From Micromonospora sp. NBC_01740 (GTDB lineage Bacteria > Actinomycetota > Actinomycetes > Mycobacteriales > Micromonosporaceae), in the NCBI RefSeq assembly GCF_035920365.1, contig NZ_CP109150.1, positions 5,270,001 to 5,334,000 on the forward strand: a stretch of 64,000 nucleotides of DNA, in the 5' to 3' direction. The first letter of the stretch is position 1, and every line of letters begins with the position of its first letter. Positions 27,682 to 57,058 of this stretch are shown piece after piece. Both the position numbers and the translations under genes were made by a program. Under the pieces are notes generated by a model. The model was not told the origin of the DNA. It saw nothing but the letters and a program-made list of their open reading frames with translations, and did not search any database.

Positions 27682-27697
27682 CGGGCCGGGCGGCCCG
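27682..27697 (+). terminator. GC hairpin after the isochorismatase-fold gene
   Basis: CGGGCCG-GG-CGGCCCG just after the stop at 27676. It may separate the metabolic genes from the biosynthetic cluster. Confidence 0.35.
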
Positions 27698-27789
27698 TCG
27701 CCCGGCGGCCGCCCCGGCCGGGCCGTTCCGGCGGGCGGCCGGCCAGCCCCGACAACGGCCCGGACAGCCCCTAGCCCGGCCCGTTTGCA

Positions 27790-27819
27790 TTGACGACGGG
27801 CGTGCCGCGCTGGCAGCAT
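27790..27819 (+). promoter_or_regulatory. Possible promoter of the trimodular NRPS
   Basis: TTGACG (27790-27795), 18 nt, CAGCAT (27814-27819). The predicted start lies about 4 nt before the ATG at 27830, which has no Shine-Dalgarno sequence, consistent with a leaderless mRNA. The -10 is weak. Confidence 0.35.
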
Positions 27820-27829
27820 CCGGCGCATC

Positions 27830-33800: not shown

Positions 33801-36217
33801 CCCACCACACCTTCCGCCAACTCCTGCACCACTCCCGCACCGTCCTCATGCACGCCATCACCCACCAGGACATCCCCTTCGACAAACTCGTCGAACACAC
33901 CCGACCCACCCGCGACCGCCACACCCCACCCCTCATCCAGACCGTCTTCACCGGCGGGAACGCCACGGGCATCGCCGACGAGCCCATGCCGTTGCACACC
34001 GCCACGATGCGGCCGGTGTCGATCGAGCCGGGAACCGCGAAGTTCGACCTCACGGTCCACGCGGAGGTGGGCACCGACACCGTCGACGTGTACTTCAGCT
34101 ACGCCCGCGACCTGTACGAGCCCGGCACGATGGCCGACCTGGCCGACAGCTACCGCGCCCTCGTCGCCGCCGTGCTGGCCGATCCCGACCGGCGCCTGTC
34201 CAGCGTGGAGGTTGTCACCGACGACCAGCGCCGGCGGCTCGCGGCGGTGTCCACGGGGCGGCGGAGCGGGTCGGACCCGGCTCGTGTGACGCGGCCGGTC
34301 GGGGCCGACCCCGCTGACGGTACGGACGTCCAGGACACCGGGCCGGGCGGCATGGCCGGATGGTCGGACGGCGCTCCGGGGTGCGTGCCCCGGCTGGTGG
34401 CGGAAACGGCCCGACGCCAACCCGACGCGCTCGCCGTCGTCGACGCGGCAGGCCCGATCACCTACCGCGAACTCGACGAGCGGTCCAACCACCTCGCCCA
34501 CCAACTCCTGCACCACGGCGCCCGACCCGACCACCCCATCGCCGTCAGCCTCCCACCCGGCACACCCGCCATCACCGCCATGCTCGCCGTCCTCAAAACC
34601 GGCGCCGCCTACCTCCCCATCGACCCCACCGCACCCACCACACGCCGACACCACCTCATCACCAACTCCGCCGTCACCATCCTCATCACCCAAGACCCCC
34701 ACGACACCGACACACCCCCCGGCGTCGTCACCCTCGCCCCGCACCGCTCCGCCTCCCCGGCGGCACCCCGGGTCGACATCCACCCCGAGCAGTTGGCGTA
34801 CGTCATCCACACCTCCGGCTCGACGGGTGTCCCCAAGGGCGTCATGGTCGCCCACCACGCGCTGGCCAACCTCGTCCGGTGGCACCTCGACACCTATCCC
34901 AGCGGGCCCGGCGAGCACCACGGGCAGATCGCCAGCCTCGGCTTCGACGCGGCGGTCTGGGAGATCTGGCCCGCGCTGGTCAGCGGCGCCACCCTGCACA
35001 TCGCCGACCCCGCCGACCGCCTCGACCCCGCCGCGCTGCACGACTGGATGCACCGGCAGGGTCTCACCGAGGCCTTCGTGCCCACCCCGATCGCCGAGGC
35101 CGTCCTGCGGCTGCCGACGCCGCCCACCACCACGCTGCGCACGCTGCTCACGGGTGGGGACGCCCTCACCACCCGGCCCTCCGCGCGCACCCCCTACGCC
35201 CTGGTCAACCACTACGGGCCCACCGAGGCCGCGGTCGTCGCCACCGCCGGGCCGGTGCGCCCGGACGGGACCCACCGGCCGGACCTCGGCACCCCGATCG
35301 ACGGCGCCCGCGTCCACCTCCTCGACGCCGAGCTGCGCCTGGTGCCGCCCGGAGCGCCCGGCGAGCTCTGCATCGCCGGCGACGGGCTGGCCCGGGGATA
35401 CCTCGGCCGCCCGGGGCAGACGGCGGAGCGGTTCCTGCCCGACCCGCACGGACCACCCGGCAGCCGCCTCTACCGCACCGGCGACCTCTGCCGCCTCCGC
35501 ACCGACGGCACCCTCGAATTCCTCGGCCGCACCGACGAACAAATCGCCATCAACGGCTACCGCATCGAACCCGGCGAAATCGAAACCGCCCTACGCGCAC
35601 AACCCCACATCGAAGCCGCCCTCGTCACCACCCGCACACTCCCCACCGGCCGCCACCTCATCGCCTACGTCACCAGCACCAGCACCATCGACACCCACCA
35701 ACTCCGCGACACCCTCCACCACACCCTCCCCCGCCACCTCGTACCCCACGCCATCATCGCCCTGCCCCACTTCCCCCTCACCCGCAACGGCAAGATCGAC
35801 CGCAACGCACTCCCCGCACCGGATCCCACGACCATCCGCTCCGCGCCGCCCGGCGACGCCGTGCAGCGGCAGCTCGCCGGGATCTGGGCGACGGTGCTGG
35901 GCACCCCCGTCGCGGGCATCGGAGTCCGCGACGACTTCTTCGCCGTCGGCGGGCACTCCCTGCTGGCCACCCAGGTCACCGCGCAGGCCGGCGCCGCGTT
36001 CGAGGTCGACCTGCCGGTCGCGGCGCTGTTCCGGGACCCGACGATCGCGGGGCTGGCCGACGAGCTGCGCCGCGTCGAGCGCCGGCCCGGCTGGGTGGAC
36101 ACCGTGGCCGGCCTGCGCGAGGCCGTCGCCGCGCTCACCGAGGACCAGGCCCGACGAGCGCTGGCCGCCGCCACCCGGCCCGGCCCGCCGTACGACGAGA
36201 CAGGAGCGCCCCGATGA
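27830..36217 (+). CDS. Trimodular NRPS: A-T-C-A-T-C-A-T
   Basis: 2795 residues. Domains: A1 ~25-515, T1 ~525-595 (LGGHS, Ser ~555), C1 ~634-1075, A2 ~1094-1572, T2 ~1590-1650 (FGGHS, Ser ~1613), C2 ~1694-2135, A3 ~2184-2665, T3 ~2680-2745 (VGGHS, Ser ~2709). Both C domains have intact HHIVLDG and look LCL-type; no epimerase. Pocket residues read by aligning to GrsA: A1 D-A-W-T-L-A-L-V-L-K (Phe-like, uncertain), A2 D-A-W-F-F-G-I-V-A-K (hydrophobic), A3 D-A-W-F-L-G-H-V-V-K (one change from a known Leu code). With no N-terminal C domain it either starts a chain or receives one through a C domain in trans. Modules 2 and 3 share near-identical blocks. Stop overlaps the next start (ATGA). Confidence 0.93.
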   Translation: MIKESGWSAPPVPARPSGQPAGGEPHHADLVHEAIVRHPADALALGTDDALVTYGELRARSNRLARHLRATGVRRGDLVAVLLPRGVDGIVSVLAALTAGAAYLPIDAGYPPQRVRHMLTDSRARVLVTVRSLVRADLVVPGTPVVLLDDDRATLAAYPDRPPAVPVGPGDLAYVIYTSGSTGLPKGVMVEHGSLRGLARWRADAERLGPDDRCLHLFSPGFDASVWDIWAPLVAGASLWMPDDATRVDPDRLVDWLAAHAITSATLPTPLAEAVLTRPAPPDGALRILGAGGQQLLARPRPEHAFTTVNLYGPTEATVLAMAGEVAVEGDGPPSLGHPAAGAAIRLLTDDLRPVPAGSLGEVFIGGPGVARGYHDRPALTAERFPPDPYGPPGSRLYRTGDLARQLPDGTYHFAGRVDDQVKLHGHRIELGEIESVLLRHPGVRAAAVRVHEGTAGPRLVGYVVPEVGPDDATLAEHAARYLPATMVPAAWVRLAALPLTPHGKLDRAALPAPAEQVSEAPRDDLERRVAQVWAEVLGKSPGRDDNFFSLGGHSLRATMVAVRLRERFGLPIPAAIVFEAQTVAAMADRLRAEVTADPSTGGEDDPVVSGTGQPSEPDPALVPPGGKTSSPGRVLSFAQQRLWFLHTLDPKSTAYNTQTAWHIDGELDLDHLDTAIDEIIRRHEVLRTTFAEHDGIPVQIVHPPTTHHSTRHDLTHIHPDHHDHHVRDILRAELDQPFDLTTGPLLRSHVLQLAPTSHVLCLTWHHIVLDGWSVSVFHTELDHLYTDLAHGRAPSLPPLTTQYADIAQRQRHHWQSADARQQLEQFAARLRDAPPVCHPPTDRPRPDTEPGPTAVHHSQLNPDTLTTLTALAAQTGSTPFGVLLAAFQLLIHRYTHQNPIVIGTPLTGRTDPDAEKLIGFFVNTLPLAVDINPHHTFRQLLHHSRTVLMHAITHQDIPFDKLVEHTRPTRDRHTPPLIQTVFTTMEGTDPAPLHTATMRPLPIDEGVAKFDLTVQVQVEPDAVRVLFDYACDLYEPATMAELADSYRALVAAVLAEPDRPLSTVVAVTAAQRERLADALIASPVPVPPGDLGCVPRLVAETARRQPDALAVVDGAGAITYRELDERSNHLAHQLLHHGARPDHPIAVSLPPGTPAITAMLAVLKTGAAYLPIDPTAPTTRRHHLITNSAVTILITEDPHDTDTPPGVVALAPQATATATPPPLDIHPEQVAYVIHTSGSTGTPKGVMVPHRALTNLVHWHLDTHPTGPGQRHGQVASLGFDAAIWEIWPALVSGATLHIADPADRLDPAALHDWLVREDVTRTFLPTPIAEAVLRLPTPSTSRLRTIFTGGDALTTRPSAHAPYTLFNIYGPTETTVAVTVGPVRPDGVHRPDLGVPIAGARIHLLDADLQLVPPGAPGEVCVAGDVVSRGYLNKPGQTAERFLPDPHGPPGSRLYRTGDLCRLRTDGTLEFLGRTDEQIAINGYRIEPGEIETALRAQPHIEAALVTTRTLPTGRHLIAYVTGTHIDTHQLRDTLHHTLPRHLVPHAIIALPHFPLTRNGKIDRNALPAPDLSARGEPPRDDLERRVAQVWADVIGRLPGRDDNFFAFGGHSMQATMIAARLRETLGVPVSAAIVFEAQTVAAMADRLRAEVTAGPSTVGGEDDPVVTGAGQPSEPEPVLVPPGGKTSSPGRVLSFAQQRLWFLHTLDPKSTAYNTQTAWHIDGELDLDHLDTAIDEIARRHEILRTTFAEHDGVPVQIVHPEPTHHRTRHDLSHIHPDHHDRHVRDILRAELDQPFDLTTGPLLRCRALRLSDTAHVLCLTWHHIVLDGWSVGVFHTELDHLYTDLAHGRAPSLPPLTTQYADIAQRQRHHWQSADARQQLEQFAARLRDAPPVCHPPTDRPRPDTESGPTAIHHTHLPAGTLTTLATQTGSTPFGVLLAAFQLLIHRYTHQNPIVIGTPLTGRTDPDAEKLIGFFVNTLPLAVDINPHHTFRQLLHHSRTVLMHAITHQDIPFDKLVEHTRPTRDRHTPPLIQTVFTGGNATGIADEPMPLHTATMRPVSIEPGTAKFDLTVHAEVGTDTVDVYFSYARDLYEPGTMADLADSYRALVAAVLADPDRRLSSVEVVTDDQRRRLAAVSTGRRSGSDPARVTRPVGADPADGTDVQDTGPGGMAGWSDGAPGCVPRLVAETARRQPDALAVVDAAGPITYRELDERSNHLAHQLLHHGARPDHPIAVSLPPGTPAITAMLAVLKTGAAYLPIDPTAPTTRRHHLITNSAVTILITQDPHDTDTPPGVVTLAPHRSASPAAPRVDIHPEQLAYVIHTSGSTGVPKGVMVAHHALANLVRWHLDTYPSGPGEHHGQIASLGFDAAVWEIWPALVSGATLHIADPADRLDPAALHDWMHRQGLTEAFVPTPIAEAVLRLPTPPTTTLRTLLTGGDALTTRPSARTPYALVNHYGPTEAAVVATAGPVRPDGTHRPDLGTPIDGARVHLLDAELRLVPPGAPGELCIAGDGLARGYLGRPGQTAERFLPDPHGPPGSRLYRTGDLCRLRTDGTLEFLGRTDEQIAINGYRIEPGEIETALRAQPHIEAALVTTRTLPTGRHLIAYVTSTSTIDTHQLRDTLHHTLPRHLVPHAIIALPHFPLTRNGKIDRNALPAPDPTTIRSAPPGDAVQRQLAGIWATVLGTPVAGIGVRDDFFAVGGHSLLATQVTAQAGAAFEVDLPVAALFRDPTIAGLADELRRVERRPGWVDTVAGLREAVAALTEDQARRALAAATRPGPPYDETGAPR
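29694..30780 (+). repeat. C-domain repeat, copy 1
   Basis: Encodes most of C1 and is nearly identical to 32,874-33,951. Codons end almost always in C and leucine is mostly CTC, unlike flanking sequence. Confidence 0.8.
31109..31470 (+). repeat. A-domain N-terminal repeat, copy 1
   Basis: Start of A2; nearly identical to 34,382-34,743. Identity falls off before the A3 core and substrate pocket. Confidence 0.8.
32141..32547 (+). repeat. A-domain C-terminal repeat, copy 1
   Basis: End of A2 (motifs A7-A10); nearly identical to 35,414-35,823 apart from a short in-frame difference near 32,401/35,674. Confidence 0.8.
32874..33951 (+). repeat. C-domain repeat, copy 2
   Basis: Second copy of the 29,694-30,780 block, inside C2, with a few substitutions and a small deletion near 33,600. 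Confidence 0.8.
34382..34743 (+). repeat. A-domain N-terminal repeat, copy 2
   Basis: Start of A3, partner of 31,109-31,470. Confidence 0.8.
35414..35823 (+). repeat. A-domain C-terminal repeat, copy 2
   Basis: End of A3, partner of 32,141-32,547. Confidence 0.8.
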
Positions 36218-38496
36218 GCGGCCCGTCGCCCGACCCGGTCACCGCGCTGCTGCGACCGCCGCCCGGCTGGCCGGCGGAGGAGCACCGGCACCTGTTGGTA
36301 CGGCTGCTGCGCGAGCGGCTGCCCGCCGCGCCGACCGGTCCCGCCACCGTGGCCCAGCGGCAGCTCTGGTTCCTGCAACAGCTGGAGCCGACGAGCACGG
36401 CGTACCACATCCTGACCGTGGTGCGGATGACCGGCGAGCTGGACCTGCCGGCCCTGCGCGGCGCGCTCGCCGCCGTCACGGACCGGCACGACCTGCTCCG
36501 GGCCACCTTCGCGATGGTCGACGACGAGGTGCTCGTGCGGATCGGTCCCTGCGCGCCGGTGCCGGTGCCGGTCGTCGACCTCGGCACGACGGACGCCGCG
36601 ACCCGAGAGCAGCGGGTCCGGCAGGAGCTGGAGAGGGCCCACGACGAGCTGTTCGACCTGGCTGACGGCCCGCTGCTGCGGGCGGTGCTGATCCGTTGCG
36701 GGGCCGACGAGCACCTGCTCGCGGTCACCGTGCACCACATCGTCTTCGACGGCGGGTCCCGCCCGGTCTTCTGGAGCCACCTCGCCACGGCCTACGACGC
36801 GCTGCGGGCGGGGAAGACGCCGGACCTCGATCCGCCGGTGCCCGACGACGAGGACGACGAGGACGACTTCGCCGACGACCCGGAGGACCCGGACGCGGCA
36901 CTGGCCTACTGGCGCGAGCGGCTGGCCGGCCTGCCCGACCTGGACCTGCCCGGCGTACGCGACCGGGTGCCCGGGGCGTTGGCCTCCGGCCGGCGGCTGG
37001 ACGTCCCGCTGGACCGCGGCGTGACGACCGCCCTCACCCGGCTGGGTCGGTCCCGGCGGGCCACCTCGTTCATGACGCTGCTGGCCGCGTACCTGGTGCT
37101 GCTGTCCGTACGCACCGGCAGCAGCGACGTCGCCGTGCTGTCGCCGACGACGGGCAGGACGAGCGAGGCGGACGAGAGCCGGATCGGGTACTTCGTCAAC
37201 ACCGTGGTGCTGCGCGGGGACCTGGCGGGCAACCCGACCTTCGCCGAGGTGGTCGACCGGGTCCGGGAGCTGACCCTCGGGGCGTACGCCCACATGGCGG
37301 TGCCGTTCGAACGGATCGTGGACGAGGTGCGCCCGGCGCGGGTGCCGGGCCGGATGCCGTTCTCACAGTTCGCGTTCAGCGTGGAGGGCCGGCCCGCGCC
37401 CCCGCCCCGGCTCGCCGGCCTGAGCACCGCCTGGGTCGACGTCGACACCGGCACGGCGAAGTTCGACGTGCAGTTGGACGTCCTGACCGACGCCTCGGGC
37501 GGGCTCGTGGCGGCCTGGACCTGGCGCGACGGGCTGTTCGACCCGGCGGACATGGCCACCGTCGCCGACGACTTCGTGGCGCTGCTGGACGCGGTCGTCG
37601 CCGACCCGCACGCCACCGTCGACGCGCTGCCGGTGCGCCGGCCCGTGCCAGGCGTCCGGGCGGCGACCCCGCCGCCCGCGGCGCGTACCCGGCCGGGCGG
37701 GACGGGGTCCGGCACGCTGGTGCACCTCGGCGGGCCGACCGACCGCCCGCCGCTGATCCTGCCGCACCCCGTCAGCGGCACGGTCGGCGCGTACGCCGAA
37801 CTCGCCCGGCTGCTGCCCGCGTACCACCTGGTCGGCATCGAGTCGGCCGCCGACGCCACCGGCGACTCCATCGACGCGCTCGCCGAGGCGTACCTGGACG
37901 ACGTCGTCGCCCGCTGGCCGGCCGGCCCGTACCGGCTGTGCGGCTGGTCGATGGGCGGCCTGCTCGCGTACGAGATGTCCCGCCGGCTGGTGCGGGCCGG
38001 ACGCGCCGTCGACCTGCTGGTGGTGCTGGACACCGCGCCCGGGCAGGCGCGCCCGGCCGGCGAGGGGACCGACGACGCCGCGACGGCGGCCCGGTTCGCC
38101 GCGGACCTCGCCGCGTCCCTCGGCCGGGACCACCCGGCGCCGACGGCGGCGACGCTCGCCGCGCTGCCGGTCGAGGAACAGACGATGCTGCTGCGCCGCT
38201 GGCTGGTGGACGCCGGGGTGACCCCGGTGGCGCTGCCGGTGCGCGAGGTGCGCCGCCGGGTGGAGACCTTCGCCCGGCACGTCACCGCCGTGGCCGGGTA
38301 CCGGCCGGAGGGCGCGGAGCTGCCGCTGACCGTCGTGCAGGCCGCCGCGTCGCCGCGCTGGCAGCCGCGCTGGGAGCGCTACGTCGGCGCCCGGACCACC
38401 GTCCACGAGTACGAGGGCGACCACTACTCGCTGCTGCGCCGGCCCACGGTGCAACGGATCGCGGGTTGGCTGGCCCGGGCGCTGGACGACCGGTGA
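36214..38496 (+). CDS. NRPS condensation-thioesterase protein (C-TE, no carrier domain)
   Basis: 760 residues. C domain about 40-475 with QRQLWFLQQLE opening and intact HHIVFDG (from residue 174). Type I thioesterase about 505-755 with GWSMGG (Ser579), VLDTAPG (likely Asp) and EGDHYSLL (His). Between them is only a Pro/Arg-rich linker with no GGxS carrier motif. The C domain must therefore join substrates held on carriers of other proteins and the TE must take the chain from a carrier in trans. An Asp/Glu-rich loop (about residues 208-229) is inserted in the C domain. Start overlaps the trimodular NRPS stop (ATGA), so the two proteins are made together and probably interact. Likely performs final coupling and product release or cyclisation. 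Confidence 0.92.
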   Translation: MSGPSPDPVTALLRPPPGWPAEEHRHLLVRLLRERLPAAPTGPATVAQRQLWFLQQLEPTSTAYHILTVVRMTGELDLPALRGALAAVTDRHDLLRATFAMVDDEVLVRIGPCAPVPVPVVDLGTTDAATREQRVRQELERAHDELFDLADGPLLRAVLIRCGADEHLLAVTVHHIVFDGGSRPVFWSHLATAYDALRAGKTPDLDPPVPDDEDDEDDFADDPEDPDAALAYWRERLAGLPDLDLPGVRDRVPGALASGRRLDVPLDRGVTTALTRLGRSRRATSFMTLLAAYLVLLSVRTGSSDVAVLSPTTGRTSEADESRIGYFVNTVVLRGDLAGNPTFAEVVDRVRELTLGAYAHMAVPFERIVDEVRPARVPGRMPFSQFAFSVEGRPAPPPRLAGLSTAWVDVDTGTAKFDVQLDVLTDASGGLVAAWTWRDGLFDPADMATVADDFVALLDAVVADPHATVDALPVRRPVPGVRAATPPPAARTRPGGTGSGTLVHLGGPTDRPPLILPHPVSGTVGAYAELARLLPAYHLVGIESAADATGDSIDALAEAYLDDVVARWPAGPYRLCGWSMGGLLAYEMSRRLVRAGRAVDLLVVLDTAPGQARPAGEGTDDAATAARFAADLAASLGRDHPAPTAATLAALPVEEQTMLLRRWLVDAGVTPVALPVREVRRRVETFARHVTAVAGYRPEGAELPLTVVQAAASPRWQPRWERYVGARTTVHEYEGDHYSLLRRPTVQRIAGWLARALDDR

Positions 38497-38554: not shown

Positions 38555-39865
38555 TCAGGCGGTGGGGGTGCCGGCCGCGAGGGGCTGGTCCGGTGACGCC
38601 AGCCCGATCTCCAGGCAACGGCGGGTCTCCGCGAGCAGTTCGTCGGTGCGTCCGGCGCTGTAGGAGGAGGCAGCGGCGTACAGCTTGATGCGTAGCTGCT
38701 CCTGGCCGTCGAGCTGGTCGAAGTAGCCGCCCAGACCGGCGGTGTCGTCCAGCGCCGAGGTGCTGTCCAGCTCGATCGCCTCGGCGGTGGCGCCGGGCCA
38801 GTCGATCGCCCGCAGCAGGGAGTAGTTGACCGAGACCGGGGCCAGCAGGTGCACCGGCACCCCGCGCCGCTTCAGCTCCACGACGACCCGCTCGAAGGGG
38901 ACGGCCTGGTGGCCGAGCGACTCGGCGGCCTGGTGGGCGACCCGGCGGCTGAGGTCGGCGAAGCCGATCCCCGGCGGTACGTCGACCCGCAGGACCGCGG
39001 CCTGGCTCAGCTGGCCGACGACGCGTTCGCAGTCGAGGAACGACCGCATGTCCACGACGAAGGCCACCCGGAACGACCGGGTGGCGGCGGGCCCGCCCAG
39101 CGCGCCCAGCAGGGCCGCGGTGTACGCGGCGAACGGGGAGACCCGCAGGCGGCGCACGGCCGGCACGATCCCGCCGGAGGGGACGTGCGCCTGCGCGAGG
39201 TGGCCACCGGGGGCCGGGGGTGGCCCGTCCGGTGCCGCGTCGAACGGGTCGGTCAGGTCGGCCCCGGTCTCCACCGGGCCGAGCCGGCCGAACGTGTCGA
39301 GCCACCAGTCGAGGTCCTCCTCCGCCTGTTCCTCGCCCAGCTCGAAGAGCCGGTCGAGGACGTCGTCGATCGGCTCGGCGGCGGGTGGCTGGCCCGTGCC
39401 GGCGCCCAGCTCGGCCCCGTAGAGGACGGCCAGGTCGTCGACCAGCAGGTCGAGGGAGTGGTGGTCGAGAAGCGCCATGTGCGCGCACAGCAGCAGGTAG
39501 GAACTCCCCGTGCCGGTCCGGGCCAGCGACACCGTCCAGCACGGTCCGGCCCACAGGTCCACCGGCCGCCGCAGGGCGGCCTGGCACCAGTCGAGGGCGG
39601 CCCGGTCGTCGGGCACCTCGACGACCTCCAGGTCGGCCCGATCGCGGCCGTCGCGCAGGACCACGTAGCCGTCGTGCTCGGCGAACGCCCGGCGCAGCAA
39701 CGGATGCGCCTCGGCCAGCCGCCCGACGGCGCGACGCAACGCCTCGACGTCGACGTCGCCGTTCAGGCGGTGGCACACCTGGGTCATCAGGGTCGCGGGA
39801 CCGACCCGGCCGTCGAGACGGCACAGGTATTCCTGGTGTTCGCTCGTCTCGAAATGGTCCCGCAC
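38555..39865 (-). CDS. Stand-alone condensation-superfamily protein with altered active site
   Basis: 436 residues, one C-domain/PapA-like acyltransferase fold without carrier or adenylation domains. The motif corresponding to HHxxxDG reads HMALLDH: the second His, normally the catalytic one, is Met and the Gly is His; a one-residue shift would instead give A-H-x4-D. VAFVVDMRSF and VSVNYSLLRA mark later C-domain regions. It could be an inactive scaffold, an acyltransferase with shifted chemistry, or an interface protein for carriers lacking their own module. GTG start at 39865. It is separated from MbtH by 446 nt containing its own promoter and a short leader-like ORF. Confidence 0.8.
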   Translation of the reverse strand: MRDHFETSEHQEYLCRLDGRVGPATLMTQVCHRLNGDVDVEALRRAVGRLAEAHPLLRRAFAEHDGYVVLRDGRDRADLEVVEVPDDRAALDWCQAALRRPVDLWAGPCWTVSLARTGTGSSYLLLCAHMALLDHHSLDLLVDDLAVLYGAELGAGTGQPPAAEPIDDVLDRLFELGEEQAEEDLDWWLDTFGRLGPVETGADLTDPFDAAPDGPPPAPGGHLAQAHVPSGGIVPAVRRLRVSPFAAYTAALLGALGGPAATRSFRVAFVVDMRSFLDCERVVGQLSQAAVLRVDVPPGIGFADLSRRVAHQAAESLGHQAVPFERVVVELKRRGVPVHLLAPVSVNYSLLRAIDWPGATAEAIELDSTSALDDTAGLGGYFDQLDGQEQLRIKLYAAASSYSAGRTDELLAETRRCLEIGLASPDQPLAAGTPTA

Positions 39866-40311: not shown

Positions 40312-40530
40312 CTACCCCGCCTCGCCCGCCATCGCCCGGCGCAGGCTCAGCGGGCGCATGTCCGTCCACACCGAGTCGATGTGCTCCAGGCACCGGGCGC
40401 GCGGCCCGACGAAGCCCTCCTCCCGCCAGCCCGCCGGGATCTCCCGCCCGTCCGGCCAGATCGAGTACTGCTCCTCGTCGTTGACCACGACCCGGCAGAT
40501 GTCGGCCGTCTCCGTCTGCTCCACCGTCAT
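40312..40530 (-). CDS. MbtH-like protein, NRPS adenylation chaperone
   Basis: 72 residues. [19 protein letters not shown] and [13 protein letters not shown] are the family signature, including the conserved tryptophans. MbtH-like proteins bind the N-terminal subdomain of many adenylation domains and are needed for their folding or activity, so this one probably serves several A domains of the cluster. ATG at 40530 with GGAGAAG upstream; last gene of the minus-strand operon, 10 nt after the class III aminotransferase. The ~210 nt beyond its stop show no clear terminator. Confidence 0.95.
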
Positions 40531-40540: not shown

Positions 40541-41842
40541 TCACAGCTCGGACACCTCGGTCAGGGCCCGGTCGATCCCGGCGATCCCGGCGGTCAACTC
40601 CTCCGCCGTGATGGTCAACGGAGGGAACAGGTGCAGCCGGTTGCCCGCCGCCAGCGGCCAGACGCCGTGGCGCTTGCACGCCGCCAGGACGGCGGCCATC
40701 TCGGGCGCCAGCGTCCCCGGGGCCGCGTACGGCGCCAGCGGCTCGCGGGTCGCGCGGTCCCGGACCAGCTCGACCGCCCAGGCCAGGCCGACGCCGCGGA
40801 CGTCGCCGACGATCGGGTGGCGCTCGGCCAGCTCGGCCAGCGCCGGTCCCACCACGTCGCGGCCGAGTGCGGCCGCCCGGTCGACCAGGTTCTCCTCCCG
40901 CAGCACCCGCAGCGCCGCCACGATGGAGGCGCAGGCCAGCGGGTGCCCGGAGTAGGTGAGCCCGCCGGGGTAGCGGCGGTGCGCGAAGTGGGCCGCCACC
41001 GCGCGGGACAGCAGCACCCCGCCCACCGGCACGTAGCCGGAGTTGACCCCCTTGGCGAAGGTCATCAGGTCGGGCACCACGTCCCAGAGGTCGCCGGCGA
41101 ACCACCTGCCGCACCGGCCGAAGCCGGTCATCACCTCGTCGGCGATCAGCAGGATGCCGTGCTCATCGCAGAGCCGGCGGACGCCGGCCAGGTAGCCGTC
41201 CGGCGGCACCAGCACGCCGTTGCTGCCGACCACCGGCTCGACGAGGATCGCGGCGATCGTGTCCGGGCCCTCGTACCCGACGAGCCGGCGCAGGTGCTCC
41301 AGCGCCCGTTCGCCCTCCTGCGCGGCGTTCTCGGCGTGGAACTCGCTGCGGTACGGGTACGGGCCCGTGAAGTGCACGGCGCCGCCGCTGGCCGTGTCCA
41401 CCGGCCAGCGGCGGGGGTCACCCGTCAACGCCAGCGCCCCGGCCGTGGCCCCGTGGTAGGACCGGTAGGCGGCGAGCACCTTCGGCCGCCCCGTCACCAC
41501 CCGCGCCATCCGCACGGCATGCTCCACGGCCTCCGCGCCGCCGGTGGTGAACAGGACCGTCTCCAGGTCCCCCGGTGCCACCTCGACGATCGCCCGGGCC
41601 GCCTCGTCGCGGACGTCGACGGCGAACGACGGCGCGATCGTGCACATCCGTCCGGCCTGCTCGCGCAGCGCCGCCACCAGGGCCGGGTGCTGGTGGCCCA
41701 GGTGCAGGTTGCCCATCTGGGCGTGCAGGTCGAGCCACCGGTTGCCCTGCTCGTCCCAGAACCAGCTGCCCGCGCCGCCGGCCACGCGGACCGGATCGAT
41801 CTCCTCCTGCGCGGACCAGGGGTAGAAGACCGGCCCGGTCAC
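40541..41842 (-). CDS. Class III (omega) PLP-dependent aminotransferase
   Basis: 433 residues. Fold-type I, class III features: [55 protein letters not shown] and the PLP lysine K264 in [10 protein letters not shown]. Such enzymes move amino groups to or from omega-amines, aldehydes or ketones. GTG at 41842 overlaps the stop of the CocE-NRPS fusion gene, so it is translated with it. Possible jobs: making a non-proteinogenic (for example diamino or beta-amino) acid for the cluster, or aminating a carrier-bound aldehyde/ketone. The substrate cannot be read from sequence. Confidence 0.9.
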
Positions 41843-44800
41843 GACGCCTGCCGTTCGCGGACCAGGTCGACCTGCTCGGCCAGCGTCGGCGCCGCGAACA
41901 CGTCCTGCAGGGAGAGCCGGACCTGGTACGCCTTGCGGATCCGGCTGATCAGTCGGATCGCGAAGAGCGAGTCGCCGCCCAGGTCGAAGAAGTCGTCCCC
42001 GGGCTCGACGCCGTCGACCTTGAGCAGGGCGGCCCAGATCTGCCCGAGCTGGTCCAGCACCTCGGAGCGGCCGTCGTCGGACGGCACGGCGGTCGGCTGT
42101 GCCGGGTCCGGGGCGGCCTCCGGCGGGGCGGTCGGCCGCCCGGGGGCGGCGGGCACCAGTTCCAGCCGTCCCGCCGTGGTCCACCGCACGGTGGCCCCGG
42201 TGTCCCGCATCCGCGCGCCCGGCGTGCCGGCGTACGGGTCGTCGACCTCGCCGGCGCCGCTGACCCACAGCCGCCCCGGGGTGTTCACCGGCACGGTCCG
42301 CGCGCGGTCGTCGAGGACGTAGCAGCGGGCCACGGCCGGCAGGTCGTCCTGGCCGACCAGCGCGTCCGGCAGCCGCGCCGGGTTCCAGCCGTCGAGCACG
42401 GCCCGCAGCTCCCGGCGGGGCATGGCGGAGAGCTCCCCCACCGGCCGCTCCTGGTCGGAGACGAGCTGGTCGAGCACGGTCAGCATCGAGTCGAGGATCC
42501 GCTGGACGGTGGCCCGGTCGAACAGGGCGAGCCGGAAGTCGAGGCTGCCCACCATCCGGTCCTCGCCGACCTGGTTCACGGCCAGCGCCAGGTCGTACTT
42601 CGCCGAGGTCCACTCCGGCGGTTCCAGCCGCAGCGCCTCGACCGCGCCGAGCCGGAACCGGTCCGGCACCGCCCGGCCGTACCGGACGCAGACCTGCACC
42701 AGCGCGGAGACCGCCGGGTCCCGGCGCGGGCGCAGCTCGCCGACCAGCGTGTCGAAGGGCACCCGGCGCAGCTCCAGCGCGGTCAGCACGCTGCCGCGTA
42801 CGTCGTGCAGGAACTGGGCCACGGTGGCGTCCCGGTCGACCCGGATCCGCAGCGGCAGCAGGTTGACCAGGCAGCCGATCAGGTCGCGGGTCGACTCGTC
42901 GTCGCGTTGCAGGCTCGGCGTGCCGATGAGCAGGTCGTCGCCCGCGCCGTACGCGTTCAGGGTGCGGGCGAACGCGGCGGTGAGCAGGGTGAACGGGCTG
43001 GTCCGCGCGGCGGCGGCCGCCGCCACCAGCCGGGCGGCGAGGTCGTCGTCGATCGTGAAGCGCACCGACCCGCCCCGGTGGTCCAGGACCGGCGGTCGGG
43101 GCCGGTCCGTCGGCAGGGTGATCACCTGCGGAGCGCCGTCCAGGTAGCGCCGCCACCGGGCGAGCTGGTCGGCCGCGCCCGGCCCGGCGAGTTCGGCCTG
43201 CTGGCGGCGGGCCACGTCCGCGTACCGGCACGGCACGTCCGGCAGCCGGAGCGGCTCCCCCCGCGCGTACGAGGGGTAGAGCCGGGCCAGCTCCGCGAAG
43301 AAGATCTCCGCCGCCGTCGGGTCGGCGGCGACGTGGTGCACCACCAGCAGCAACGCCGTCCGGCCGGCGGGCAGCTGCACGGTCGCGACCCGGATCGGCC
43401 ACTCCCGGGCGAGGTCCCACCGGCGGTCGCGGAACCCGGTCACCCGCTCGTCGCCCGCCCAGCCGTCGGCCGGCGCGTCGCTGAGGTCGAGGCGGGCGAT
43501 CGTGAGCGGCGCCGCCGGGTGGATGCGCTGGACCGGTTCCTCGTCGACCTCGACGATGGTGGTCCGCAGCGCCTCGTGCCGGCGGACGATCTCGTCGACC
43601 GCCGCGTGCAGCGCGGCGGCGTCCACCGGCCCGGTCAGCTCGACCGCCGCGTCGAGGTGGTACGCCGCTCCGCTCGTGCCGGCCTGCTCGGCCAGCCAGA
43701 TCGCCCGCTGCGCCACGGAGAGCGGAGCGGTGTCGTCGTCGGCGTCGCGCCGTTCGAGGGTTGCCGCGCGGGGCAGTTCCAGCGTCGGGGCGGCGTCGGC
43801 GTCGTGGCGCACCGTCAGCACCGGCGCGACGTCCCGGGGCACGGTCAGCGCGTTGTCCGCGTCCGCCCCGGTGACCGCCAGCCGGATCCGGTCGCCCGCC
43901 GCGAACCGGTACGCGATCGGGTGCAGCTCGATCTCCAGGCGGGAGTCGCCGGGAGCGCCGTCGACCTGGCCGCAGCCCTCGGTGACGTACAGGGAGGTGC
44001 CGTCGGGGGCGACCGACTCCAGGTAGGCGAAGACGTCCGCCGGGCCGTCGGTGACCCGGGCCGCCAGGCGCAGCACCGGGGCGCCGACCAGCTCGACCGC
44101 CTCGGTCAGCGCGTCGGAGGTCCAGCACAGCGCCCGGGTGTCGTTGTCGGTCAGGTCCGGCCGCTGGAAGGGCGAGCCGTAGCCGCTGGCCCACCGGCTG
44201 GTCTTGCCGGACGTGGTGGCGTAGTCGACCTCGTACCGCCGGGCCTCGCCGGCCCGGGGTTCCGGTCCCAGCTCGCCGGCCGAGCCAAGGTGCCAGGTGC
44301 CGGTCGTCGCCGGCTCCGGCGGCCAGGACCGGGCGGTACGCCACGCGTCGGCGCCCAGCACGTGGTACCGGACGGCCGGGCCGTCCATGATCCCGGTGTC
44401 CCGGCCCCGCAGCCAGTGGTCGAACCATCGCACGTGCTCGTCGGCCAGGTTGTAGCCGGCGCCGCCCAGCACCCCGCCGGTGTGCGGCCACGGGCCGATG
44501 ACGACCCGGTGCGGCACGGTCAGCCGGCGGGCCCACTCGGTCGCGTCGCGCGCCCAGACGTCGTGCCAGCCGCCCAGGTGGTAGACGGCGACCCCGGAGG
44601 CGTTGATCGCCTCCAGCAGCGCCGACGGGCTGCGGGTCAGGTACGCCGCCTCGCCGGTGTCGGCCAACCGCGACTCGCGCCCGGGCAGGCCGGCGAACAT
44701 CGTCCGGACGTCCCGGTTCGCCACGTGCTGCTCGCGGGCGGCGGTCAGCAGGAGGCCGTCGGGGTCGTCGTCGAGGGGCGCGACGGGGCCACGCAGGTCG

Positions 44801-45417
44801 AGTTCGCGCACGTCCTCGCCCCAGGCGCGGGCGAAGTCGTCCCGGAACACCCCGCCGTCCCAGGCGAAGCGGTGCAGGTCGAACAGCGCCATCTGCGGGA
44901 AGATCGCCGCCAGGTGCGGCGGGGCGGTGCTCGCCGCGAGGTACTGCGAGACCCCGAGGTAGGAGCGGCCGAACATGCCCACCCGGCCGTCGCACCAGGG
45001 CTGGGCGGCGATCCACTCGGTGACGTCGTACGTGTCGGTCGCCTCGGCCGTGGAGAACGGGCCGTCGCTGGTGCCGAACGACGCGCCGCTGCCCCGGCTG
45101 TCCACCACCACCACGACGTAGCCGCGGGCCAGCAGGCGCTGCGCGACCGGGAAGGCCCGCAGCGTCACCTCCCCGGGGGCCACCTCGGCCACGCCGAGGT
45201 CGTCGATGTCGGTGAGGTCGACGTCCGCCAGTTCGGCGCGTACCACCGCCAGGAAGTCGTCGCGCCCGGGGCGCGGCGACACCTGGTGGTAGCGGTCGTG
45301 GGCCCAGACGGCGGGCGCGGGGTCGCGCTGGCCGACCGGCCGGAAGACGTACGCCGCCAGCCGGGTCCCGTCGCGGGTGGCCACGTACTGCGAACGGCAG
45401 GTCCAGGTGCGGCTCAT
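41839..45417 (-). CDS. CocE/NonD-family hydrolase fused to an NRPS C-(relic A)-T module
   Basis: 1192 residues. Residues 1-330 form an X-Pro-dipeptidyl-peptidase/CocE-type alpha/beta hydrolase: GRSYLG (Ser152), GGWHDVW (Asp286) and GPWPH (His312) give a complete triad. Residues ~375-545 match its C-terminal jelly-roll. A C domain follows (about 563-1000) with HHVAADP (694-700), Pro replacing the usual Gly. Residues ~1028-1087 (CYVLDDRA, GRLWVSGAGE, RMRDTGATVRW, GRLELV) align with the middle of an A domain (motifs ~A6-A8); the ATP-binding and pocket regions are gone. A T domain ends the protein (DLGGDS, Ser1150). The carrier must be charged in trans. Hydrolase plus NRPS module in one chain is unusual. 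Start ATG overlaps the CmlA-like gene stop. Confidence 0.9.
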   Translation of the reverse strand: MSRTWTCRSQYVATRDGTRLAAYVFRPVGQRDPAPAVWAHDRYHQVSPRPGRDDFLAVVRAELADVDLTDIDDLGVAEVAPGEVTLRAFPVAQRLLARGYVVVVVDSRGSGASFGTSDGPFSTAEATDTYDVTEWIAAQPWCDGRVGMFGRSYLGVSQYLAASTAPPHLAAIFPQMALFDLHRFAWDGGVFRDDFARAWGEDVRELDLRGPVAPLDDDPDGLLLTAAREQHVANRDVRTMFAGLPGRESRLADTGEAAYLTRSPSALLEAINASGVAVYHLGGWHDVWARDATEWARRLTVPHRVVIGPWPHTGGVLGGAGYNLADEHVRWFDHWLRGRDTGIMDGPAVRYHVLGADAWRTARSWPPEPATTGTWHLGSAGELGPEPRAGEARRYEVDYATTSGKTSRWASGYGSPFQRPDLTDNDTRALCWTSDALTEAVELVGAPVLRLAARVTDGPADVFAYLESVAPDGTSLYVTEGCGQVDGAPGDSRLEIELHPIAYRFAAGDRIRLAVTGADADNALTVPRDVAPVLTVRHDADAAPTLELPRAATLERRDADDDTAPLSVAQRAIWLAEQAGTSGAAYHLDAAVELTGPVDAAALHAAVDEIVRRHEALRTTIVEVDEEPVQRIHPAAPLTIARLDLSDAPADGWAGDERVTGFRDRRWDLAREWPIRVATVQLPAGRTALLLVVHHVAADPTAAEIFFAELARLYPSYARGEPLRLPDVPCRYADVARRQQAELAGPGAADQLARWRRYLDGAPQVITLPTDRPRPPVLDHRGGSVRFTIDDDLAARLVAAAAAARTSPFTLLTAAFARTLNAYGAGDDLLIGTPSLQRDDESTRDLIGCLVNLLPLRIRVDRDATVAQFLHDVRGSVLTALELRRVPFDTLVGELRPRRDPAVSALVQVCVRYGRAVPDRFRLGAVEALRLEPPEWTSAKYDLALAVNQVGEDRMVGSLDFRLALFDRATVQRILDSMLTVLDQLVSDQERPVGELSAMPRRELRAVLDGWNPARLPDALVGQDDLPAVARCYVLDDRARTVPVNTPGRLWVSGAGEVDDPYAGTPGARMRDTGATVRWTTAGRLELVPAAPGRPTAPPEAAPDPAQPTAVPSDDGRSEVLDQLGQIWAALLKVDGVEPGDDFFDLGGDSLFAIRLISRIRKAYQVRLSLQDVFAAPTLAEQVDLVRERQAS
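42157..42336 (-). other. Relic adenylation domain within the CocE-NRPS fusion
   Basis: About 60 codons aligning to the YVLDE...PGE.YVGGAG...RTGD...DGRLEFLG stretch of complete A domains in the same cluster. The TSGSTG ATP loop, the pocket residues and the A10 lysine are missing. Confidence 0.75.
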
Positions 45418-47009
45418 GCCAGGTCGGCCCGTCCGTAGAGTTCCCGCGCCGGCACCCCGACGTCGGCGCAGCGCTGGAAGAACTCCGCCATCTGCTTGAG
45501 CTGGTAGGACTCGTCGGTGTAGTTCGTCGCCATGACGAACACCAGCCACGGCTCGCGGCCCATCGCGTACACGTACGCCTGCCGGGCCCGCAGCCGCCGG
45601 ACGATGCCCATCGCCTCGACGGCGTCGGAGCCGTTGAGCTTGCGGCTGCGGCTCATCTTCTGGTCGATGCGGCGGGAGAAGAGCGGACCGTACATCCAGG
45701 ACAGCGGGGCGCCGTCGCACTCCATGCCGAGGAACGCCATGTCGACGTCGCCGATCATGTCGTGGATGTGGCCGAACAGGGCCGGGTCGACGCAGCGGTT
45801 GTCCGCGCCGAAGTAGAGGTTCTTCCCGCCGGTACGCACCGAGTAGGTGACCTTCGCGGCGATGTCGAGGTCGCAGTGCTCGCCGACGAACGGGCACACC
45901 ACGATCTGCCCGTCGGGCAGCTCGATGGTCTCGCCCGGCTCCACGTCGACCACGTTGGGGAAGCCGAGCGCCTCCAGGCACAGCCGCAGCGACGGGTCCT
46001 GCAACGCCCCGGCGGCGGTCTTCGGCACCACCACCGTGCCGATGCGGTGCCGCAGCTTCAGCAGGGAGGCCAGTTCGAGGTGGTCCTGGTGCCCGTGCGT
46101 GATCAGCACGTAGTCGATGACGTCGGGCAGGTCGGCGTAGGCGTACCGGTCGCCGTCGCCGAGGGCGTCGGACAGGAACGGGTCGGTCATCACGGTGACC
46201 GGGCCGGACTGCACCACCACGCAGGCGTGCCCGAAGTAGCGCACCCGCAGCCCAGGGCCGTCCAGGTTGCGGTCCGGGCTCCCGCCCGGCTCGGCGGAGA
46301 ACAACCCGCTGAAGGTCGCCAGGTCGGCGTCGGAGACGTCGAACGCCTCCCGCAGCTCGCCGAAGGGCCGGGCCGTGGTCATGGTGGAGAAGAGCAGGTC
46401 GATGCGGGGGTCCCGCAGCGGCATGGTGGCCTGCACGTGCCCGTTGCCGGGGAACCGCGGGGTGGTCATCGCGAACGGCCGCTCGTCGCCGGTGGCCAGC
46501 GACAGGTCCACCGAGTGGGCGGTCTCGTCGAAGTGCCGCGACCGGTAGAGCATCCGCTCGGCGAGCCGGATCCGGGCGTGGTCGTTGAGGTCGTAGACCA
46601 GCTCGACGTAGCCGCGCAGGGCCGGCGGGATCTCGCCGTAGCGGGGCGTCAGGTCGAACCCGTCGGCGAGCTTCTCCAGGTTGACCGTCAGCTCGTCCAT
46701 CGCCGCCGACAGCTCCGGCATGGGTCCGTCGGCGAGCCGGGCCGCCAGGTCGGACACCCCGTCGAGCTGGTCGTCCTCGAGGTCGACGAACATGCCGCCG
46801 CGCAGCTTCGGGTCCCGGGCGGAGCGGCGGTGCAGCGCGGGCGCGTCGAGGAACGAGCGCAGCAGCGGCACGTGCAGCTTGGCGAAGTTCATCGCCGCCG
46901 GCACCGGCGACACCAGGTTCAGCCAGGCGTAGTACCGGTGGATGAGCGGTTCCAGCGCCAGGTTGGGGCGGGCGTGCACCAGGTCGTGGCTGGCGAAGGG
47001 CTGGTTCAT
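45414..47009 (-). CDS. CmlA-type diiron beta-hydroxylase (metallo-beta-lactamase fold)
   Basis: 531 residues, the length of CmlA (about 532). An N-terminal all-new-fold domain (~1-245) is followed by a metallo-beta-lactamase domain. Metal ligands: HGHQDH at 305-310 (H305, H307, D309, H310), E377 in VGEHCD and D403 in FGADN; these match the ligand numbering I recall for CmlA, the chloramphenicol beta-hydroxylase. CmlA uses O2 at a carboxylate-bridged diiron site to hydroxylate the beta-carbon of an amino acid tethered to an NRPS carrier. Here the target could be any residue of this assembly line; leucine from A3 is a candidate, since related enzymes hydroxylate Leu. Overlaps its neighbours on both sides (ATGA), so it is part of the core operon. 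Confidence 0.9.
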   Translation of the reverse strand: MNQPFASHDLVHARPNLALEPLIHRYYAWLNLVSPVPAAMNFAKLHVPLLRSFLDAPALHRRSARDPKLRGGMFVDLEDDQLDGVSDLAARLADGPMPELSAAMDELTVNLEKLADGFDLTPRYGEIPPALRGYVELVYDLNDHARIRLAERMLYRSRHFDETAHSVDLSLATGDERPFAMTTPRFPGNGHVQATMPLRDPRIDLLFSTMTTARPFGELREAFDVSDADLATFSGLFSAEPGGSPDRNLDGPGLRVRYFGHACVVVQSGPVTVMTDPFLSDALGDGDRYAYADLPDVIDYVLITHGHQDHLELASLLKLRHRIGTVVVPKTAAGALQDPSLRLCLEALGFPNVVDVEPGETIELPDGQIVVCPFVGEHCDLDIAAKVTYSVRTGGKNLYFGADNRCVDPALFGHIHDMIGDVDMAFLGMECDGAPLSWMYGPLFSRRIDQKMSRSRKLNGSDAVEAMGIVRRLRARQAYVYAMGREPWLVFVMATNYTDESYQLKQMAEFFQRCADVGVPARELYGRADLA

Positions 47010-48025
47010 CGCGCTCCCTCGGTGGAGTCCGTACGCAGTCGGTCCCGGACGGTCCGGACGACCTGTGCGAGGTGGTGGAAGTCTTCGTCGTCGGTGGGGG
47101 TGTCCAGCACGAAGGTGCGTACGCCGGCCCGGATCATCGCCAGCAGTCGCTCGACGGCGCCGGCGTGGTCGGCCACCAGGTACGGCCCGTCCGCCTGGCC
47201 GGAGCGGAACGGCGCGAGCCGGTACGCCGGGTCGACGGTGACGGCGCCGTGGCCGGCCTCCGCCTCGGCGAAGAGCCGCTGCTTCCAGACGGAGTCGGTG
47301 TTGGCCATGGTGACCGCGGTGATCTTCGCGCCGTCCGGATCCTCCGGGAAACGGGCCTCGGCGACCCGCTCGGTCTCCTCCGCCGTCGCCCGGGTCAGCA
47401 GCCCGAAGTTCAGCGCGCCCGGTGCCCCGTCGGCGTCGGGCCGGGCCGCCGTGAGCATCTGGATGCTGGTGGCGCCCACCCGCTCGGCCACCTGCCGGGC
47501 GGCCGGGGACTGCCCCGCGACGAACAGCCGCGGCAGCAGGTGCGCGGGAAGGCCGGGGGTGAGCTGCAACCGGGACACCTGGTAGAACCGCCCGTCGAAG
47601 CTGAACGGACGGCGGCTGCCCAGCACCCCCATCATGATCTCGACGTACTCGGCGAGGCGCGCGTACCGGTCGTCGTGGTCCAGCCGGTCGCCGAGCGCGT
47701 CCAGGTCGCTCACGGCGGTGCCGGTGATCAGGTTGAGGTCGATCCGCCGCTGGTAGAGCAGGCCGAGCGAGGCGACCATCCGGGCCGCGGCGAACGGGTG
47801 CTGGTAGACGGGGTTCACCGCGACCAGCGGGCTGAGCCGGGTGGTGCCGGCCGCCGCGGCGGTCGCCAGGACCCAGGGGTCGAGCACCGCGCCGCTGCCG
47901 GTGAAGATGAGCACCCCGTCGAGGTCCGCCGCGTCGGTGCGGCGGATGACGGACATCGCCGTGTCCGCGTACGCGGTCAGGTCCCGGACCCGGGGCACCA
48001 CGGTGATGAAGCTGACGTCGGGCAC
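47006..48025 (-). CDS. Luciferase-like (LLM) flavin-dependent monooxygenase
   Basis: 339 residues, single TIM-barrel of the bacterial luciferase/alkanesulfonate monooxygenase (SsuD) family. SFITVVPRVRD opening, LSPLVAVNPVYQHP, RIDLNLITGTAVSDL and LPRLFVAGQSPAARQVAERVG match SsuD-like flavin-binding regions. These enzymes use FMNH2 and O2. It lies between the ketosynthase and CmlA-like genes with a 4-nt gap on one side and an ATGA overlap on the other, so it should act on an intermediate of the pathway. It is a separate protein, unlike LLM domains fused within some NRPS/PKS lines. Substrate unknown; N- or C-oxygenation of a carrier-bound chain is plausible. Confidence 0.88.
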   Translation of the reverse strand: MPDVSFITVVPRVRDLTAYADTAMSVIRRTDAADLDGVLIFTGSGAVLDPWVLATAAAAGTTRLSPLVAVNPVYQHPFAAARMVASLGLLYQRRIDLNLITGTAVSDLDALGDRLDHDDRYARLAEYVEIMMGVLGSRRPFSFDGRFYQVSRLQLTPGLPAHLLPRLFVAGQSPAARQVAERVGATSIQMLTAARPDADGAPGALNFGLLTRATAEETERVAEARFPEDPDGAKITAVTMANTDSVWKQRLFAEAEAGHGAVTVDPAYRLAPFRSGQADGPYLVADHAGAVERLLAMIRAGVRTFVLDTPTDDEDFHHLAQVVRTVRDRLRTDSTEGAR

Positions 48026-48029: not shown

Positions 48030-50509
48030 TCACGCTCCCTCTTCGGAGACCGCGGCGAGCGCGGCCCGGATCTCCTGCGCCTCGCGCAGCTTGCCGTCGA
48101 TCACCTCGGCGAGCGCGGCGACGGTGGGGGTCTGCAGGAACACGCCGAGTTGCAGGTCGACGTGGAAGGCCTGGGCGAGGTCCCGCAGCGTCCGGGCGGC
48201 GCTGAGCGAGTCCGCGCCGAGCATCAGCAGCGAGTCGTGCAACCCGATCCGGTCCACCCCGAGCCGGCGGCGCCACACGGCGGCAACCGCCTCCTCCAGG
48301 ACCGAGCCGGCGGCCGGCTGGGCGTCGGCGGCGGGCTGGGCGTCGGCGGCGGGCTGGGCGTCGGCGGCCGGGGCCGTCGGCGTCGGGCCGGTCACGGGCG
48401 CCACGGCCACCGGGTCGACCCAGTGCCGCGTCCGCTGGAACGGGTACGTCGGCAGGCCGACGCGACGCCGCGACGCGCCCTCGTGCAGGGCGGCCCAGTC
48501 CACCTCGACGCCCCGGCGCCACAGCTCGCCGAGCGCGCCCAGCAGCCCACGGAGGCTCCCGGCGTCGTCGGTCAGGGCCAGCGTCGACGCCTCGGCCGGG
48601 CCGACGGCCAGCGTCAGGTCGGCCTCGGCCGGCGTCCCGGCCGGCGCCGGCGGGTGGCTGCCGGCGCGCAGGGCGCGCCCGGCCTCCGCCACCGTCCAGC
48701 GGCCGTCGACGACGGCGGCCGTCACGGCGCCCGGACCCTCGCCGTGGGCGGCGACCGGGGACACGCCGCAGGCGCCCAGCAGCCGGGCGAGCGCGAGCTG
48801 CCCGGTGACGGTGGCCGCGTCGGAGCCCGGCCCGCCGGCAGCCGGGTCGACGCCCAGCTCACCGGCCACCCGGTCGACCTCCGCCCGCAGCCGGGGCAGG
48901 GCGTCGCACAGCGCGGCCAGGTCGGGGCAGGTGGCGGGGAACGCGTACGCCACCGTGGCGGTCTCCGGCGACGCCTCGCCCGCGCCGACGGCGGACAGCG
49001 CGCGGGCCGCCTCCCCGGCGTCGGTCGCCACCACGAAGGCCCGGTGGCGCAACGCGCGACGGCCGACCTGGCTGGTGTAGGCGACGTCGGCGAGGGCCTG
49101 CTCCGGGTGACGCCCGAGGTGCTCGGCGAGCCGGTTGGCGGCGGCGGCCAGCGCCTCGCCGCCGGCCGCGGAGACGGCGAGCAGCACGGCCGGCGGGTTC
49201 GGCCCCGGCGGCGCGGGCGGCGGCGCCTGTTCGAGGATGACGTGCGCGTTGGTGCCGCCGACGCCGAACGAGCTGACCGCCGCCCGACGCGGCCCGGTGA
49301 CCTCGGGCCAGTCCCGCAGCATGTCGTTGACGCGGAACGGCCCTCGGTCGAGCGAGGTCTGCGGGTTGGGCTTGCGGAAGTGGATCGACGGCGGCAGCTC
49401 ACCGTGGTGGACGGCGAGGACCGCCTTGATCAGCGACGTCACGCCGGAGGCGGTGTCGAGGTTGCCGACGTTCGGCTTGACCGAGCCGATCGCCCAACCG
49501 GCGCCCGAAGCGCCGGCGGCGCCGTACGCCTCCTCCAGGGCGGACACCTCGATCGAGTCGCCCATCAGGGTGCCGCTGCCGTTGGCCTCGACGTACTGGA
49601 TGGAGTCCGCCTCGACGTCGGCGACCCGCAGCGCCCGGCGGATCACCCGCACCTGGCCCGACCGGCCGGGCGCCACGAAGCTGACCTTGCCGGCGCCGTC
49701 GTTGTTCACCGCCGAGCCCTTGACCAGGGCGTAGATCCGGTCGCCGGCGTCCTCGGCGTCCTCCCGGCGGCGCAGCACCACCACGCCGGCGCCGTCGCCC
49801 AGGTGGTAGCCGGCGGCCTCGGCGTCGAAGGCCCGGCAGCGGCCGTCGGGCGAGTTGATGCCGTCGGCCTCGTGCCGGTAGCCGCGGGGCACCGGGTTCT
49901 TGACGCTGACCGCGCCCACGATGGCCATGTCGCACTGGTAGTCGAGCAGGCTGCTGATGGCATGGTGCAGCCCGACCAGGGCCGAGGAGCAGTTGGTCTG
50001 CACCGTCATGCTGGGCCCGGTCAGGTCGAGCTTGTACGAGATGCGGGTGGCCAGGTTGTCCTTGTCGCTGGCGACGGCCATGCCCAGCCGGCCGGCGGAG
50101 TCGACCAGCTCCTGCTGGGGCAGCAGGTGGTAGAGCAGGTACTGGTTCAGGCCGCAGCCGGCGTACACGGCGATGTCGCCGGGGAAGCGGCGGCTGTCGT
50201 AGCCAGCGTCCTCCAGCGCCTCCCAGGCGCACTCCAGCAGGATCCGGTGCTGCGGGTCGATCAGCGTCGCGTCCGTCGGCGAGTAGCCGAAGAACTGGGC
50301 GTCGAACCGGTCGGCGCCCTCGATGCCCGACCACACCGGCACGTACGCCGGGTCGGCGCGTTCCTCGGCCGGGACGGCGTCCAGCTCGGCGGCGGTCAGC
50401 TCGCGGCCGGCGTCGACGCCGTCGCGGAGCAGCTCCCAGAACTCGGCGACGTTCGTCGCGCCCGGAAACCGTCCGCTCATCCCCACGACGGCGATGTCCA
50501 TCTCGCTGC

Positions 50510-50513: not shown

Positions 50514-57058
<6,545 letters not shown>

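Follow-up and report, generated by a model that had tools for sequence, protein, structure and literature searches.

Within a 64,000-nucleotide stretch of the Micromonospora sp. NBC_01740 genome (the window; the genome is a single contig of 7.3 Mb with 65 Condensation matches), a minus-strand gene at 41839–45417 encodes what is, judged from its sequence, an NRPS module that lacks adenylation activity of its own and begins with a CocE-type serine catalyst, apparently an active one. The reading that we favour, with a probability of roughly 40%, is that Ser152 of this catalyst accepts a tailored acyl or aminoacyl group from a different carrier and delivers it to the adenylation-less carrier of its own protein, by analogy with CysB, SyrC and CmaE. 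The original prediction had the coordinates right and left the strand unnamed. It had described a complete, conserved serine hydrolase joined to a condensation (C) domain, a relic adenylation (A) domain and a carrier (T) domain, and this description is borne out by Pfam and NCBIfam matches, by alignment of the catalytic triad and by a remnant of the A6–A7 part of an A domain.

Gene, domains and operon

The gene is whole and its product has 1192 amino acids (P0002). The start codon, an ATG at 45417, lies within an ATGA overlap with the upstream CmlA-type gene, and the stop lies in a 4-base overlap with the aminotransferase gene that follows, so that the expected overlap with genes on both sides is real and amounts to 4 bases each, as part of an operon. 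A single GC3 phase dominates across the gene body; the plus-strand frame over the same bases is open too, but has no Pfam match. The N-terminal CocE/NonD hydrolase (43837–45372) is made up of Peptidase_S15 (residues 16–313; 3.2e-49) and PepX_C (342–527; 2.9e-22), and is followed by a Condensation domain (562–1005, at 42403–43734; 2.1e-74), a relic adenylation segment (approximately 1006–1085, at 42163–42402) and a PP-binding carrier domain (1123–1186, at 41860–42051; 5.3e-16). P0002 scores 168.4 bits against PF02129 (cut-off 23) and 313.4 bits against the NCBIfam model TIGR00976 CocE_NonD (cut-off 66.3), which makes it a member of that family. An X-Pro dipeptidyl-peptidase proper is ruled out, the scores being 60.3 bits versus 642 for PRK05371.1-1 and 24.8 versus 881 for PRK05371.1-2. 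At E ≤ 0.001, Pfam gave neither an AMP-binding nor a PF00975 (NRPS thioesterase) match for the protein.

Set beside a canonical C-A-T module, P0002 has the HHxxxD motif of the C domain (HHVAAD at residue 694, the usual next Gly being a Pro) and the carrier serine (FDLGGDS), but a pattern search found none of the A3, A5, A8 and A10 motifs of a working A domain. The roughly 80 residues between C and T align with the A6–A7 part, of which an A6-like and a worn A7-like segment are kept. As a special sign, the loss of Gly from HHxxxDG carries less weight, since the same Gly is missing from two more C domains of the operon (HHSVMDVWS and HHLVCDLWS).

When P0002 is aligned with cocaine esterase (the reference chain being a Ser117Ala mutant), Ser152, Asp286 and His312 fall in the nucleophile, acid and base columns; the acid and base of cocaine esterase are, as we take it, Asp259 and His287. 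Tyr43 pairs with Tyr44 of that enzyme within a weak 0.7-bit segment only. The Ser-Asp-His triad is kept in all 79 CocE domains compared and is unchanged in each of 14 fused proteins. Residue 175 of P0002 is Gln in 11 of 11 fused CocE domains and Glu in 25 of 33 generic ones, and is mixed in the TubC group (Gln 17, Glu 7 and Gly 1 of 25, plus Gln in 3 of 3 minus one that differs at the next position); the difference could mark a changed substrate pocket. An AlphaFold model of the full protein reached a mean pLDDT of 83.9 and a pTM of 0.62, for which reason its domain arrangement, which is not reliable, was left unused. The best Foldseek matches of the model were condensation-adenylation structures of Txo2/Txo1, with cocaine esterase (1ju3, TMt 0.74) also among them, as a protein made of C and CocE parts should give.

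A CocE match at E ≤ 1e-80 was present in five of 160 genomes of the genus, namely the window's own, three that carry the fusion (G031, G103 and G120) and one with a stand-alone CocE (G142). The gene is intact in the three fusion-bearing relatives (1195, 1206 and 1197 residues, respectively, with no internal stops), and a stop or frameshift near 43,700, which we looked for, is absent; agreement of the four genomes rules out a frameshift or assembly artefact. Mean dN/dS across the four is 0.25 for CocE, 0.23 for C, 0.38 for the relic A segment, 0.35 for T and 0.93 for the linker (residues 1086–1116). By this measure CocE, C and T are under purifying selection and the linker alone looks free to drift. 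CocE is not under tighter constraint than C among these genomes, and T is less constrained.

The operon, all of it on the minus strand, begins with a C-A-T NRPS gene (57097–60384) and continues with an A-T-C-A-T gene (50510–57058) whose first A domain is FAAL-like by eye and whose second contains a methyltransferase insert, both genes being assigned from Pfam and domain order. There follow a KS-ACP gene (48030–50513), a luciferase-like monooxygenase (47006–48025; Bac_luciferase, 3.1e-31), a CmlA-type diiron β-hydroxylase (45414–47009; CmlA_N, 2.2e-63), the fusion gene, a class III aminotransferase (40541–41842; profile match) and a probable MbtH-like protein of 72 residues (40312–40530), recognized by eye and with no NCBIfam match. 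The KS of the KS-ACP protein, identified by profile and motifs, keeps Cys175, and in 4 of 4 genomes its HGTGT motif reads NGSGT and its second histidine motif NVGN. Because both histidine motifs carry Asn and no AT match was found, this protein probably passes chains on without extending them. Like the fusion protein, it seems to be given its substrate rather than to choose it, and three tailoring enzymes are encoded between or beside them. In the second A domain of 50510–57058 the usual Asp code position is shifted (FFDSGGE; YGSSEISAD, read by eye), in a way resembling what we presume to be a β-alanine-type code; this suggests a β-amino acid substrate, as a lead only, the codes having been read by eye.

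At lower coordinates in the window, a divergent plus-strand NRPS (27830–36217; Pfam and domain order) possibly belongs to the same pathway, and a plus-strand C-TE protein (36214–38496; profile match), in which no carrier domain was matched, may depend on another protein for its acceptor. Gene order in G031, G103 and G120 is that of the window save for two differences, the NRPS module count in G120 and a C-like gene. The divergent NRPS has the order A-T-C-A-T-C-A-T in the window, G031 and G103, and A-T-C-A-T (1738 aa) in G120 (26617–31833 of the joined L100 and L101), apparently by gain or loss of one module. The C-like gene (38555–39865, minus strand), which stands alone and has the motif HMALLDH, has a 94% counterpart in G031; it had no tblastn match in the stretches of G103 and G120 examined and is therefore seemingly dispensable. 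The aminotransferase was considered as a conserved partner of CocE and rejected: the copy in G142 is 62.6% identical, which is within the range of most listed homologues (62–67%), and although the homologues P0238 and P0243 possibly share contigs with P0009 of Nonomuraea sp. NPDC050556 and P0011 of S. harbinensis, the link is weak because M. echinofusca has a second copy, also at 70% (P0245). A search for the product via strain FIMYZ51 gave no usable lead.

In the shuttle mechanism that we favour, other carriers of the operon would serve to assemble and tailor an acyl or aminoacyl group, with the CmlA-type hydroxylase, the luciferase-like oxygenase, the aminotransferase and the probably non-elongating KS-ACP taking part. 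Ser152 would accept the group as an ester, CocE would pass it on to the phosphopantetheine of the A-less carrier to which it is joined, and the C domain would then use it from there. We infer that CocE acts on carrier thioesters and that transfer prevails over hydrolysis, and the identity of donor and substrate is likewise our inference. The CocE family is known for the hydrolysis of esters and amides and not for transfer between carriers, and this chemistry of the TIGR00976 family favours a second explanation, the main rival and in our view only slightly less probable, namely that CocE acts in cis as a hydrolase which cuts a bond in a carrier-bound intermediate, be it by removal of an acyl or protecting group or by chain trimming, on a carrier loaded in trans. 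The FAAL-like A domain may start an acyl chain in this operon that such an enzyme could act on, and loading in trans has a precedent: the A-less CmnI is loaded by an A domain in trans (CmnA-A1). By the same analogy, a trans-acting A domain could load the A-less T of P0002, which would count against the shuttle. The hydrolase reading does not account for the decay of the A domain alongside retention of CocE and T.

Fused relatives and the decay of the A domain

Our search of about 5.8 billion proteins found 807 matches; 120 of these are listed, and the counts that follow refer to them. At least 12 are further CocE-C proteins (P0004–P0014 and P0016), some of them from the same strains as G031, G103 and G120, and at least one is a CocE-T protein (P0015). 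The closest named protein among the matches listed is from Micromonospora, at 93% identity, and the fused hosts named there are Micromonospora, Nonomuraea, Streptomyces harbinensis and a Jatrophihabitantaceae MAG (a partial record). The view that this architecture has no standard parallel survives in part: it does differ from the standard C-A-T module, but it does not stand alone, given these relatives among the 120 listed and the many CocE proteins that have TubC instead. The CocE-C-(relic A)-T arrangement is rare, not unique. In the open-licence literature we found no paper on such a fusion or on a role of CocE in an NRPS line; PMC2636758 places a CocE gene at an insertion site.

The state of the A domain varies within the fused group. 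All six A motifs are present in one of the eight fused proteins examined, P0013, which has the order CocE-C-A-T and a TE match below the Pfam cut-off (21.1 versus 26.4 bits); the other seven have no A3, A5, A8 or A10, and P0011 has the second half of an AMP-binding domain only. Of 14 fused proteins, 13 have the carrier serine motif; the one that does not, P0014, is a partial record. HHxxxD is kept in 12 of the 13 fused proteins with a C domain (P0016 has lost the second His, HSGAAD; P0015 has no C domain), and for this reason the C domain is not simply vestigial. Compared with the window protein, all relatives outside Micromonospora are more similar in CocE than in C (67% versus 54% identity in P0008, for example), and in P0011 (61 versus 59%) and P0012 (53 versus 52%) T lies slightly above CocE. 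These figures point to CocE and T as the lasting core, although close relatives show C to be constrained as well.

For the shuttle, then, speak the persistence of CocE and T while the A domain decays (triad in 14 of 14, carrier motif in 13 of 14, all six A motifs in 1 of 8) and the greater conservation of CocE than of C in relatives outside Micromonospora. Against it speak the dN/dS of CocE, which is not below that of C, the higher value of T, the retention of HHxxxD in most C domains of the fused proteins, and the two relatives in which identity in T exceeds that in CocE. Moreover, loading of the T domain cannot explain why CocE was first recruited, because the A domain of P0013, which branches first among the fused proteins, looks intact.

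Beyond the genus, no further fusion was found in 394 genomes of the class, 250 of the family, 249 and 392 around G216, and 396 of the phylum (stand-alone CocE query), in overlapping samples searched at thresholds of 1e-60 to 1e-100 with the best 3 to 5 candidates per genome scored. Distant relatives (39–40%) in G1630, G1499, G1430 and G1335 have signal-peptide-like starts by eye; the stretches around those in G1630, G1499 and G1335 contain single A-like genes at some distance only, and around that of G1430 an NRPS begins at a distance of about 8 kb. None of the 1040 matching records in a tblastn search of plasmids covered 80% of the query.

CocE in other assembly lines

In a tree of 79 CocE domains (P0005–P0007 omitted as near copies; rooted at the midpoint for drawing only), the 11 fused rows cluster together (99/96), P0013 being the first to branch off among them, the 27 TubC rows form a separate group (100/100), and P0151 and P0074 lie outside both. 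The stand-alone CocE genes of G142 and G216 are located within NRPS-PKS clusters. A TubC_N docking domain stands at the N-terminus of both G216 proteins (63.2 and 27.4 bits, cut-off 26) and of P0129, the database copy of the G142 CocE (61.0 bits), and TubC_N occurs in at least 26 of 120 listed relatives of a stand-alone cluster CocE (858 matches in all; counted by hand), which include proteins of Streptomyces, Kitasatospora, Micromonospora and Limnocylindrales. P0151 has the order TubC_N-T-CocE, and the database protein P0074 is a luciferase-like monooxygenase fused to a CocE domain. In the clusters of G216 (L104–L107) and G142 (L102–L103), several of whose genes were assigned by eye, TubC_N-CocE is accompanied by genes for luciferase-like, tRNA-synthetase-like and T-TE proteins and by a small ACP next to a 3-hydroxyacyl-CoA-dehydrogenase-like gene, and G216 has two CocE copies.

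Since TubC_N is present on the cluster CocE and on 26 listed relatives, CocE enzymes appear to have become linked with assembly lines on several occasions, perhaps in about four recruitments: the C-A-T fusion group, the TubC_N-docked group, TubC_N-T-CocE and oxygenase-CocE. With a midpoint root, fewer gains plus losses may account for the same pattern. This coupling by docking (TubC_N), by TubC_N-T-CocE (P0151) and by oxygenase-CocE (P0074) counts in favour of the shuttle; a docking domain on the stand-alone relatives could equally let a cis-acting hydrolase reach the chain on an upstream carrier. The most far-reaching proposal, that CocE/NonD is an unrecognised type of assembly-line domain, recruited perhaps four times, which in the fused group took over carrier loading from a decaying A domain as a built-in serine acyltransferase, is doubtful when taken as a whole.

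The T-TE genes of these clusters bear on a further explanation, in which CocE would be a thioesterase that frees a finished chain or a tailored monomer. Here a serine hydrolase and a carrier are indeed joined in one protein, and tailored amino acids are sometimes released by thioesterases. Yet a TE is already supplied by the plus-strand C-TE protein, P0013 has its own TE match below the cut-off, a T-TE gene comes directly after the second CocE of G216 and third after that of G142 (by eye), and CocE sits at the N-terminus of its module, all of which makes a role in release improbable.

Finally, CocE might have been fused opportunistically and have kept a general esterase activity, for self-resistance or detoxification, outside chain assembly. 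A scan of genome contigs for the fused form yielded 566 loci, and none of the best 80 had a C match; they served as controls, in whose flanks there was no C or KS match and, in four cases, an A-like match. This suits a general esterase, within the limits that many contigs end less than 10 kb from the match, that the HMMs were built from few sequences and that the carrier HMM at E 1e-8 was probably too strict. A single well-supported fused group that spans Micromonospora, Nonomuraea and Streptomyces, and the further couplings of CocE to docking, carrier and oxygenase domains, argue the other way, and we regard an opportunistic fusion as very improbable.

Comparison with known systems

To our knowledge, carrier-to-carrier shuttles are stand-alone enzymes. 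If the shuttle reading is correct, a built-in shuttle in place of adenylation would add a new means of loading NRPS modules and could serve as a part for engineering. Even if CocE trims or deprotects instead, its repeated coupling to assembly lines would leave a domain for which we found no role described in the literature, along with clusters in which to test it.

Cocaine esterase (PDB 1ju3, 3i2j) and the TIGR00976 family share with the fusion protein the triad, PepX_C and a fold match, but they are separate enzymes, whereas here the hydrolase is joined to C-(A)-T. The TubC_N-CocE proteins (those of G216, and P0130 of Streptomyces peucetius) resemble it in that CocE is tied to NRPS/PKS machinery, and differ in being docked, not fused, and in forming their own 100/100 group in the tree. 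CmnI and VioI of capreomycin and viomycin likewise have C and T without a working A domain; unlike P0002, they have no hydrolase, place T before C and are loaded in trans by CmnA-A1. LgnA is a thioesterase-type enzyme that moves Thr between carriers in legonindolizidine formation, which resembles the role proposed for CocE, but it is a TEII, and P0002 lacks a PF00975 match. Closest in proposed role, and by role rather than by sequence comparison, are CysB, SyrC and CmaE: in cystobactamid biosynthesis, CysB, a SyrC/CmaE homologue, loads module 3 of CysK, which has an inactive A domain, with an amino acid modified on a separate carrier. Such a shuttle serves a module with a dead A domain, as we propose for the fusion protein, with the difference that CysB, SyrC and CmaE stand alone, whereas the catalyst described here would be built into the module that it serves.
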